Shown: positions 7,304 to 9,755 of the stretch, one piece after another
How positions within the stretch are numbered: position 1 is the stretch's first letter
How the letters are laid out: the number at the start of each line of letters is the position of its first letter
Assembly (NCBI GenBank): GCA_002869695.1
Contig: PKUD01000200.1
Span: 1-43,323 of the forward strand
Length of the DNA stretch: 43,323 nt
Origin: Desulfuromonas sp.
GTDB taxonomy: Bacteria; Desulfobacterota; Desulfuromonadia; Desulfuromonadales; Geopsychrobacteraceae
Direction of reading: 5' to 3'
Position numbers and translations under genes: made by a program
The notes under the pieces: generated by a model
What the model saw: the letters and a program-made list of their open reading frames with translations, nothing else
Databases searched by the model: none
What the model was told of the DNA's origin: nothing

Positions 7304-8302
7304 ATGGGTATTTTTTCGCTGAAATCAATCCTGCTGACAACATTCCTTCTGGCCATGGCAACCTTCGCCCTGCTCGGCTACTGGTTTCTTCCCGTCACCC
7401 CGCCGGCAGCGGTTCTGCTGAACGTCGAAAGCGGGGCATCCCTCTCCCGCATCGCCCAGCAACTTGAGCAGCAGGGTGTTGTCCGCTCGGCCACGGCCGT
7501 GAAATTGCTGGCGCGCCTGCGCAACCAAAGCAGGGAGATCCACATCGGGACCTACCGTTTTACCGATACCGCCGCTCCCGCCGAAATCCTCTCCCGACTG
7601 GTCAGCGGTGACGTCGAGCAGGTCAGCCTGACCATCCCGGAGGGGTTCACCCTTGAGCAGATTGGCGACCGGCTCGAAGAACAGGGGCTCGCTGACAGAG
7701 AACGTTTCCTGCAGCTCTGCAGGGACCCACAGCTGATCGCCTCCTTCGATATTCCGGCGGCAAACCTGGAAGGCTATCTGTTTCCGGAGACCTATCGCTT
7801 CACTCCGGGCCTTTCTGAAAGAGAGCTGATCCGCATGATGGTTCAGCAGCTGTTCACCCGGTTGGACGAGAGGTTGCTGAGCGCAGCCAAGCAACGAGGG
7901 CTGAACCGGCATCAGCTCGTGACCCTGGCATCGATCATTGAAAAGGAGACCGGCCAGGCCGATGAAATGCCACTGATTGCGTCGGTCTTTCACAACCGGC
8001 TAGAGCGCAAGATCCCACTGCAAACGGACCCGACAGTGATATACGGCATCGCCGACTTCGATGGCAACCTGACCCGCCGTCACCTGACAACGGCGACCCC
8101 CTACAACACCTATTTGATCCGCGGACTACCGCCCGGGCCGATCGCCAGCCCGGGGATTGGCGCCCTGTACGCCGCTGCCCATCCTGCTGAAAGCAACTAT
8201 CTCTACTTCGTCTCCCGGGGCGATGGACAACATGCTTTTTCCACAACCCTGCAGGAGCACAACCGCGCCGTTCGCCGCTACCAGTTAAAAAGGCGGAACT
8301 GA
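7304..8302 (+). CDS. mltG: Endolytic transglycosylase MltG (YceG-like)
   Basis: MltG is a membrane-anchored lytic transglycosylase that cuts nascent glycan strands and so sets their length. The protein has 332 residues. Residues about 10-30 form a single transmembrane anchor, followed by a LysM-like region and the YceG catalytic domain. The signature SIIEKETGQADEMPLIASVFHNRL contains the likely catalytic Glu213, and QTDPTVIYG and the proline-rich GLPPGPIASPG follow as in the family. Length is normal. It is translated directly after plsY with a 10-nt gap. Confidence 0.95.
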   Translation: MGIFSLKSILLTTFLLAMATFALLGYWFLPVTPPAAVLLNVESGASLSRIAQQLEQQGVVRSATAVKLLARLRNQSREIHIGTYRFTDTAAPAEILSRLVSGDVEQVSLTIPEGFTLEQIGDRLEEQGLADRERFLQLCRDPQLIASFDIPAANLEGYLFPETYRFTPGLSERELIRMMVQQLFTRLDERLLSAAKQRGLNRHQLVTLASIIEKETGQADEMPLIASVFHNRLERKIPLQTDPTVIYGIADFDGNLTRRHLTTATPYNTYLIRGLPPGPIASPGIGALYAAAHPAESNYLYFVSRGDGQHAFSTTLQEHNRAVRRYQLKRRN

Positions 8303-8327
8303 CTCAATAACATGCATCTGCTATAAT
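8299..8327 (+). promoter_or_regulatory. Candidate extended -10 promoter of AhpD-like/arsS pair
   Basis: CTGACT (8299-8304), a 17-bp spacer and a perfect TATAAT (8322-8327) preceded by TGC form a good sigma-70 promoter. It lies at the end of mltG and gives a leader of about 20 nt to the ATG at 8356. Confidence 0.6.
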
Positions 8328-8355: not shown

Positions 8356-8688
8356 ATGTCTGACTATTACGAATCCGAAGATCTGAAAAATTTTGCCGAC
8401 ATAGGCAAGGACGCACCGGAACTGGCGGAAAAATTTTTCGACTATTATGCCAGCGTTTTTGCGGAGGGTGAATTGACGGCCAGGGAAAAAGCACTGATCG
8501 GTCTGGCCGTCGCCCATACCGTCCAGTGCCCGTACTGCATCGAAGCCTATACCGAGTCCTGCCTGGAAAAAGGTTCGAACCTGGGGGAAATGACTGAAGC
8601 CGTTCATATCGTCAATGCAATCCGCGGGGGGGCATCTCTGGTTCACGGTATCCAGATGCGCAAACTCGCTGAAAAGGTCTCACTTTAA
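8356..8688 (+). CDS. AhpD-like (CMD family) protein associated with ArsS
   Basis: This protein of 110 residues belongs to the carboxymuconolactone decarboxylase/alkylhydroperoxidase-like family. The redox CxxC is Cys58-Pro-Tyr-Cys61 within HTVQCPYCIEAYTESCLEKG, and a downstream histidine falls in the usual helix (AVHIVNAIRGG). Its pairing with the radical SAM gene 4 nt downstream matches the arsenosugar-biosynthesis-associated peroxidase-like family. It probably supplies reductive or thiol chemistry to that pathway; its exact reaction is not settled. An in-frame ATG at 8332 exists, but GGAGGAACC before 8356 makes the latter the start. Confidence 0.88.
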   Translation: MSDYYESEDLKNFADIGKDAPELAEKFFDYYASVFAEGELTAREKALIGLAVAHTVQCPYCIEAYTESCLEKGSNLGEMTEAVHIVNAIRGGASLVHGIQMRKLAEKVSL

Positions 8689-8692
8689 ACCA

Positions 8693-9685
8693 ATGACAGC
8701 CTCACGCAACAAGACCCCGGAGCTTGGTGAGCTCACCCGGTTTGCCGACCTGCTGAAAAAAAACGGTCTTACCCTGGAACGGGACAGAACCACCACCCTG
8801 CAGCTCAACCTGGGTCTGCTCTGCGATCTGGCCTGCCGCCATTGCCACCTCTCCGCCGGTCCCCAGCGGACCGAGATGATGGACTGGCACACCATGCAGC
8901 AGGTTATTGCCTATGCTGAGAGGGTCCCCTTTCAGGTTATCGATATCACCGGCGGCGCACCGGAACTGGTTCCCGACCTGCCGAAACTGGTCAGGGCACT
9001 GGCACCGTTGACGCCTAAACTGATGCTGCGCACCAATTTGACCACCCTGGCGCACCCGGACAAGGCACCACTCCTCGAGCTACTTCGTCAACAGGGCGTC
9101 GTTCTGATCGCCTCCTTCCCCTCAACCAACACCGGGCAACTGGAAGCACAGCGTGGCCAGGGGGTGATGGATCCCTCGCTCACCACGCTTAAACGGCTGA
9201 ACGAAATCGGCTACGGAATAGAGGGGAGCGGTCTTGAGCTGCACCTGGTCGCCAATCCCTCCGGAGCCTACATGCCTAGCGATCAGGAGCAGGCGGAACG
9301 CAAGTTTAAACGGGACATGGCGCGCAAGTGGGGATTGTCCTTCAACCAACTGTACCTGTTTGCCAACGCCCCGCTGGGACGCTTTCTCGGCTGGCTGAAG
9401 AGTTCGGACAACCTGCAGGACTATATGCAGAAGCTGGCAAACGGATTCAACCCCTGTACTATCGACGGGCTGATGTGCCGCAACCTGGTCTCGGTGGCCT
9501 GGGACGGCACTCTCTACGATTGCGACTTCAACCTGGCGGCTGATCTGCCGATGAGCGGCAAGAGAATTCATGTCAGTGAGCTTGACGCGCGACCCGAACA
9601 GGGTCAGCCCATCGTGGTCGGTGAGCATTGTTATGCCTGTACGGCTGGCTCTGGCTTCACCTGAGGCGGGGAAATATCGACCTAG
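8693..9685 (+). CDS. arsS: Radical SAM arsenosugar biosynthesis protein ArsS, apparent selenoprotein (UGA at 9662)
   Basis: ArsS is a radical SAM enzyme thought to join a 5'-deoxyadenosyl group to methylated arsenic on the way to arsenosugars. The CxxxCxxC cluster motif is Cys44, Cys48, Cys51 (CDLACRHC), with more cysteines in NPCTIDGLMCRN, YDCDFN and EHCYACTAG. The frame reaches TGA at 9662-9664 right after CTAGSGFT. ArsS proteins normally end in a CTAGAGSSCGG-like motif, so this UGA falls exactly at that last cysteine. The next codons read GGEIST and then TAG (9683-9685), restoring the Gly-Gly. A SECIS-like hairpin follows the UGA. I therefore annotate Sec324 and a 330-residue product; if the UGA stops, it is 323 residues. 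Confidence 0.85.
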
Positions 9686-9704
9686 TTCAGGTCGACGAGG
9701 GTCC
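9665..9704 (+). promoter_or_regulatory. Putative bacterial SECIS element
   Basis: A 7-bp perfect stem TCGACCT/AGGTCGA (9677-9683 with 9689-9695) closes the loop AGTTC, with a possible outer GGG/CCC stem (9668-9670, 9702-9704). The apical loop starts 20 nt after the UGA and has G in its second position. Both fit the bacterial SECIS rules of spacing (roughly 16-37 nt) and a loop G. Confidence 0.7.
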
Positions 9705-9713
9705 CATAATAAA

Positions 9714-9755
9714 AAAAGCCGCACAGGTGATGATTTCGACACCTGGGCGGCTTTT
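9714..9755. terminator. Bidirectional intrinsic terminator (arsS / tatC)
   Basis: The stem AAAAGCCGC..AGGTG pairs with CACCT..GCGGCTTTT around a 10-nt loop, with one internal mismatch. A-tract and T-tract flanks allow it to end arsS from the left and tatC from the right. Confidence 0.85.

Follow-up and report, generated by a model that had tools for sequence, protein, structure and literature searches.

The window analysed here, a 43,323-nt stretch of a Desulfuromonas sp. genome, carries a two-gene unit made up of a gene for a peroxidase-like protein and, downstream of it, arsS, which encodes a radical SAM protein. The pair is flanked upstream by PlsY and MltG and downstream, on the other strand, by TatC and a TatA/B protein; it sits between mltG and tatC, outside any arsenic island. 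The features of the locus are:

8299–8327, plus strand: promoter-like pair, CTGACT-17-TATAAT, ahead of the two genes, matching 10/12 positions in a consensus scan, a resemblance that says nothing of function
8356–8688, plus strand: gene for an arsenosugar-biosynthesis-associated peroxidase-like protein of the CMD family with a CPYC motif (TIGR04169, 180.3 bits, cut-off 120; PF02627), containing no in-frame UGA
8693–9685, plus strand: arsS (TIGR04167 and translation), radical SAM selenoprotein of 330 residues if UGA 9662 is selenocysteine (Sec)
8822–8845, plus strand: CX3CX2C radical SAM cluster motif (C44, C48, C51), invariant in 56 aligned relatives
9476–9640, plus strand: CX9GX4C...CX2C twitch/SPASM-like auxiliary cluster motif (C262, G272, C277, C313, C316), invariant in 56 relatives
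9662–9664, plus strand: UGA codon at residue 324, the family's Cys column, read as Sec
9677–9695, plus strand: putative bacterial SECIS hairpin of 7 bp with loop AGTTC and with the UAG stop (9683–9685) in its top
9714–9755, plus strand: terminator-like hairpin between arsS and tatC, bordered by A-rich sequence on the 5′ side and T-rich sequence on the 3′ side (-24.2 kcal/mol, z -4.97)

The last of these was missed by a simple terminator scan; lying between the convergent arsS and tatC, it is possibly a two-way terminator.

The radical SAM open reading frame starts at ATG 8693 (an alternative start is at 8615) and meets TGA at 9662–9664. On the 3′ side of this codon the frame continues as GGC GGG GAA ATA TCG ACC TAG, giving a tail of Gly-Gly-Glu-Ile-Ser-Thr that is closed by the TAG at 9683–9685. 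When the UGA is read through, the protein matches TIGR04167 with 374.9 bits over positions 2–303 of the 303 in the profile; when cut at the UGA, it scores 365.3 bits over positions 2–297 (cut-off 300 in both cases). The C-terminal motif of the window protein is CTAGSGFT-U-GG, and column 324 is invariantly Cys or Sec across the 56 rows of our alignment A2, in which G326 is also invariant. Gly-Gly directly follows the UGA in 28/28 aligned Sec forms, the first Gly being encoded by three different codons and the second by four. Because the pair is kept despite its varied codons, these sequences indicate that protein-level selection extends past the UGA in Sec forms. In a later set of Sec forms from the phylum, Gly-Gly is found in 31/36, the first Gly being replaced by Val in L250 and L266, by Ala in L245 and L271, and by Thr in L246.

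The in-frame TGA recurs widely among relatives. At the family level, ArsS exceeds the cut-off in 12/44 genomes, and ten of these twelve have one in-frame TGA. In the order, ArsS is matched at 1e-60 in 54/136 genomes, and 22 of the 55 places concerned contain one TGA; in a sample of the phylum, 121/395 genomes have a match (125 places), with one TGA in 40 places from 38 genomes. The TGA falls exactly at the last Cys column in 22/22 places of the order and in 36/36 further phylum places that were fetched, the remaining four of the 40 being already among the order's 22. Eight further Sec forms were found among 78 parsed named loci, which come from the best 80 of at least 595; two of these 80, L097 and L102, were left out, their C-terminal motif not being shown. 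The TGA-less places of the order number 33, of which four are unread (G064 and the partial matches G124, G110, and G095). Those of the phylum number 85, and the 32 loci inspected (L216–L244 and L281–L283) have Cys in 28 of L216–L244 and in L283, and no motif in L242, L281, and L282. In G182 (C300 and C248) and in G472 (C138 and C55), UGA-type ArsS is present in duplicate.

In a tree of the order, the 22 Sec forms are split from 29 Cys forms by a branch with 100/100 support. A wider tree of 93 proteins (like the 56 sequences of A2, a subset of those collected) uses a branch with 100/100 support to set apart a group of 52 Sec forms with the motif GF[T/S]-U and three Cys forms. These nested sequences, which have Cys at the UGA column, are L091 (Geobacter sp. 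OR-1), L098 (a Nitrospinota MAG), and L283 (genome G335); they sit at separate places, with moderate support of 90/70, 89/77, and 94/84 at their nearest forks, and the well-supported branches still force three Sec/Cys changes inside the GF[T/S]-U side. Two other Sec forms, which have the motif GST-U (L245 from G298 and L246 from G431), pair with 100/97 support within the Cys-type side, and a selA match is absent in both of their genomes (73% and 90% complete). The midpoint root of the tree is a drawing aid only. By parsimony, the Sec history of ArsS would comprise two gains and three losses, although Sec may instead be ancestral and have been lost more often. The nested Cys forms and the second small Sec lineage offer a natural comparison of what selenium contributes to a radical SAM enzyme.

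Downstream of the UGA, the hairpin at 9677–9695 reads TCGACCT-AGTTC-AGGTCGA; its second loop base is G, and its loop lies 19 nt from the UGA. Bacterial SECIS elements, by published rules, have a loop of 3–9 nt, a stem of 4–16 bp, a G in the first two loop bases, a distance of 16–37 nt from the UGA, and an MFE of at most -7.5 (PMC13188914). The arsS hairpin agrees with these rules throughout (loop 5, stem 7, AG, 19 nt, -9.5 kcal/mol). A 25-nt stretch chosen around the hairpin has an energy of -9.5 kcal/mol (z -3.0), with 0/200 shuffles as good; a longer stretch of 57 nt, taken from around the UGA, has an unexceptional energy (z -1.28, 27/200 shuffles as good), and when the sequences downstream of Sec forms are base-shuffled, about 3.7% contain a hairpin that conforms to the rules and reaches -7.5 kcal/mol or lower. 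An Rfam scan of the window gave no match at gathering scores, which has no bearing on a SECIS. Judged in this single sequence, the hairpin is moderate evidence for a SECIS.

The evidence becomes strong because the hairpin is conserved and covaries across relatives. The comparison used 30 Sec forms (22 from the order and eight named) and 99 Cys forms. A rule-conforming hairpin at 18–20 nt is present in 29/30 Sec forms versus 10/99 Cys forms, and the -7.5 kcal/mol limit is reached in 18/30 and 7/99, respectively (named loci from the best 80 of at least 595). Of 210 stem cells in the 30 Sec forms, 193 are paired; when the 3′ stem sides were dealt at random 1000 times, a mean of 164.3 cells and a maximum of 176 were paired, relatedness among the sequences still being included. 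The fourth and fifth stem pairs are of several types in this set (G-C, C-G, A-T, T-A, G-T, and T-G). A MAFFT alignment left the loop unopened, and the pairs were counted in register by a script that took the best right-arm offset of 3–8 nt for each sequence and handled the shuffles alike; the hairpin alignment (A3) holds 28 of the 30 Sec forms, L093 and L095 being omitted there and included in the pair count. There are two exceptions: L099, one of the 30 Sec forms, has a stem mismatch and no perfect rule-conforming hairpin, and L247, one of the 36 later Sec forms, has a weak hairpin of -0.4 kcal/mol. The stop codon overlaps the hairpin in 28/30 Sec forms (UAG in 21 and UGA in seven, counted by reading the rows), and falls outside it in L093 and L095, which have longer tails. 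The same bases probably serve as SelB-binding RNA and later as the stop, and a stop codon that doubles as part of a SECIS is a neat detail of this gene.

The genome itself has the selenocysteine machinery: selA (594 bits), selB (368 bits), and selD (355 bits) lie on one contig, and a tRNA-Sec with anticodon UCA scores 76.6 bits. By these matches the genome is able to make selenocysteine. In the window itself, ARAGORN found no tRNA. Its selD match (L018, C196:631-1554) contains one in-frame TGA, and selD is probably a selenoprotein as well. Matches to selA are present in 114/136 genomes of the order and 355/395 of the phylum; being near-universal in these genomes, selA is a necessary but non-discriminating companion of the Sec form. 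Among the genomes with UGA-type ArsS, selA is found in 21/22 of the order and 33/38 of the phylum. The six UGA-bearing genomes in which it is missing are G024 in the order and G298, G431, G483, G213, and G333 in the phylum (62–90% complete), the cases of G431 and G483 being told from absence in the full match list.

Two other readings of the TGA have to be weighed. If it were an ordinary stop, the protein would end in ...AGSGFT, with Gly-Gly and the hairpin as leftovers or a transcription signal; seven residues are at stake, and the 57-nt context folds with an ordinary energy. However, Gly-Gly stands in all 28 of the aligned Sec forms while its third bases vary, the UGA is replaced by Cys in three nested relatives, the hairpin is conserved in position and covaries, and a distinct terminator-like hairpin is already present at 9714–9755, which leaves an ordinary stop very improbable. 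The genome is a draft of 219 contigs, and a TGC or TGT cysteine codon could have been altered by a sequencing or assembly error. Such an error is contradicted by the recurrence of this TGA, which is found in 21 further places within the order and in the 36 fetched phylum places, nearly all of which carry the hairpin, and we consider its probability negligible. Reading UGA 9662 as Sec, which makes the product a Sec-type ArsS (TIGR04167), is by contrast close to certain on the sequence comparisons. Sec insertion at this codon and the exchangeability of Sec and Cys at residue 324 are, on the same comparisons, strongly supported. In the mechanism that we propose, translation would arrive at UGA 9662, where SelB bound to the hairpin would bring Sec-tRNA-Sec; six more residues would then be joined, and the ribosome would melt the hairpin and halt at the UAG at 9683–9685.

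This outcome agrees with the original prediction, made from the letters of the window, which had placed a TGA at the family's last Cys, Gly-Gly and a short tail to TAG behind it, and a 7-bp hairpin with loop AGTTC, a loop G, and a spacing typical of bacterial SECIS elements. The translation and the published rules bear out each of these points, and the range that it gave, 9599–9704, spans all three elements (UGA, tail, and hairpin). It had also proposed checking homologues for a Cys at the UGA column and the genome for sel genes: the column holds Cys or Sec in 56 rows, L091, L098, and L283 among the Cys, and selA, selB, selD, and tRNA-Sec are all in the genome.

The suspicion that the family names hint at selenocysteine was right, as NCBIfam lists TIGR04167 as rSAM_SeCys, ArsS (seleno)protein, and TIGR04169 as perox_w_seleSAM. 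The published example of the family, AAR34688.1, is presumably the Geobacter sulfurreducens protein. As had also been guessed, the variant is a known one: AAR34688.1 appears in one table of selenoproteins, under the predicted ones, as a radical SAM domain protein of TIGR04167, with Zhang and Gladyshev 2005 cited as the source (PMC9312934), and another table gives a TIGR04167 protein predicted with high confidence, with the motif GxxU (PMC13188914). An annotation that treats the UGA as a plain stop drops Sec and the tail of ArsS, and the warning of such a trap in the original prediction has a precedent: a 2005 study counts a radical SAM protein of Geobacter sulfurreducens among the known selenoproteins and explains that its own method overlooked this protein, whose Sec lies very close to the C-terminus (PMC1242214). 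The Sec form of ArsS is an already described selenoprotein family and no new kind of system, and recognizing it here is well founded but unsurprising because the family stands on published selenoprotein lists. What is added here is the arrangement of the branches, with three Cys forms nested among the Sec forms and Sec present in a second lineage, the placing of Sec beyond seven probable cluster Cys, and the comparison of ArsM, additions that were not found in the open-licence literature searched.

The window protein shares with the TIGR04167 family a match to the full profile, but its motif is CTAGSGFT-U-GG, whereas most of the Cys forms inspected have GSSC; the GSSC rows of alignment A2 are 38–46% identical to it. 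The biochemistry of ArsS was reportedly addressed by Cheng et al. 2021, and the enzyme studied is said to be Cys-type; it belongs to the same family and has the same column, with Cys in place of Sec. SkfB, SuiB, EpeE, and BlsE share the radical SAM core and a C-terminal auxiliary domain with ArsS but act on other substrates, namely peptides and a nucleoside precursor. The TrsS radical SAM (seleno)protein (NF045646) is a weak match (28.2 bits, cut-off 490) and a different family.

Twitch/SPASM motifs have the form CX9-15GX4C followed by CX2C and bind an auxiliary [4Fe-4S] cluster, and we take the CX9GX4C...CX2C of ArsS to be of this type. From the familiar CX3CX2C motif, C44, C48, and C51 would hold the radical SAM [4Fe-4S] cluster, and C262, C277, C313, and C316 would probably hold a twitch-type auxiliary cluster. 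With the seven invariant Cys assigned to two clusters by the twitch motif, residue 324, which lies eight residues beyond C316, would be an additional thiol or selenol, and Sec324 would be a further residue for redox chemistry or for binding a metal(loid), not a cluster ligand. An AlphaFold model built from the 56-sequence alignment has a mean pLDDT of 91.9 and a pTM of 0.90; the mean falls to 47 for residues 321–330, with residues 325–330 below 50. This low pLDDT, in a model that contains no cofactors, is weak evidence that the Sec324 tail is probably flexible. The best solved fold among the matches listed is SkfB (6efn, Z 20.1, rmsd 3.1 over 238 residues); no ArsS structure is among these matches, and a PDB sequence search gave five distant radical SAM sequences. 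The idea that a second active-site Cys (in SLPCY) was lost in Sec forms was rejected because Cys forms themselves have differing residues at this position (C, Y, H, F, S, and A).

In arsenosugar synthesis, arsenic is reported to be adenosylated by a radical SAM enzyme (PMC12159101, citing Cheng et al. 2021). In the GFT-U subfamily, Sec324 might bind or reduce the soft arsenic(III) substrate that ArsS would couple to the 5′-deoxyadenosyl group, a role to which we give slightly less than even chances. The Sec form would probably work in the same kind of system as Cys forms. A relative of the partner peroxidase-like gene accompanies 28/30 Sec loci and 58/99 Cys loci (named loci from the best 80 of at least 595); in the phylum it accompanies 30/36 Sec loci, and in longer stretches of the order 0/19 Cys loci.

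It is also conceivable that Sec is real and that the GFT-U branch makes no arsenosugars, either adenosylating another substrate or serving another arsenic route, its name having been carried over from Cys forms. Several observations lean this way. The draft genome itself holds no convincing ArsM (the best NF008823 match is 48.8 bits against a cut-off of 263, and NF038099 has no match at E <= 1e-30), by models fitted elsewhere. NF038099-like proteins occur in 2/38 phylum genomes with UGA-type ArsS versus 23/83 whose ArsS has no TGA (Fisher p 0.004, which related genomes make optimistic), and in 37/274 phylum genomes without ArsS. ArsM adjoins ArsS in 27/70 named Cys loci and 0/8 named Sec loci (best 80 of at least 595), and in the order in 1/22 Sec loci, these counts resting on flanks of about 4 to 6 kb that differ in length and are sometimes ended by contig ends. 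The position of the pair between mltG and tatC, with no arsenic island, is in keeping with these counts. On the other hand, ArsM adjoins none of the Cys loci of the order either (0/19), and the partner gene is common to many Cys forms, as the 58/99 above indicates. The NF038099 cut-off is passed by 0/395 phylum genomes, and the genomes are drafts. NF008823 at E <= 1e-40 is matched in 8/22 genomes of the order with UGA-type ArsS (one over the cut-off) and in 6/32 with only Cys-type or unread ArsS; an across-the-board lack of ArsM in Sec-form genomes was not upheld, because the model is at least as frequent there. The link of the GFT-U branch to arsenosugars is weaker and its evidence mixed, and we regard a function away from arsenosugars as unlikely, though to be taken seriously. 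The broadest scenario, namely that Sec was gained at least twice at the same ArsS column (GFT-U and GST-U, each with its own SECIS) and replaced by Cys three times inside GFT-U, and that GFT-U, often without recognizable ArsM, may use Sec for another substrate or for arsenic(III) handling, is as a whole rather doubtful.

Some ArsM-like matches contain one in-frame TGA themselves (G001:C6:36735-37385, G054:C47:6323-7006, G056:C78:5001-5678, G029:C67:30954-31628, and G102:C55:56513-57088). Arsenite methyltransferase selenoproteins are listed in PMC13188914, and the TGA-bearing matches are possibly the same proteins. In two genomes, ArsM-like and ArsS matches lie within single ORFs (G262:C1:725686-727260, 692 aa, whose tail, L282, does not display the usual ArsS C-terminal motif; and G497:C60:314-2149, 685 aa), which makes them possible ArsM-ArsS fusions. 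Long ORFs in which a radical SAM domain and an ArsM-like methyltransferase domain are combined also occur: L038:1-2139 on the minus strand, which was scanned, and, seen as matches, ORFs of roughly 1,000 aa from genomes of the order and the phylum. In the neighborhood of ArsS, one protein (L190:3841-6018) combines a membrane domain, which we take to be TVP38-like, with an FAD-containing domain of the disulfide-oxidoreductase type. Relatives of it lie near 10/22 Sec loci and 3/19 Cys loci of the order, those beside Sec ArsS being in the flanks of L183–L191 and L212.
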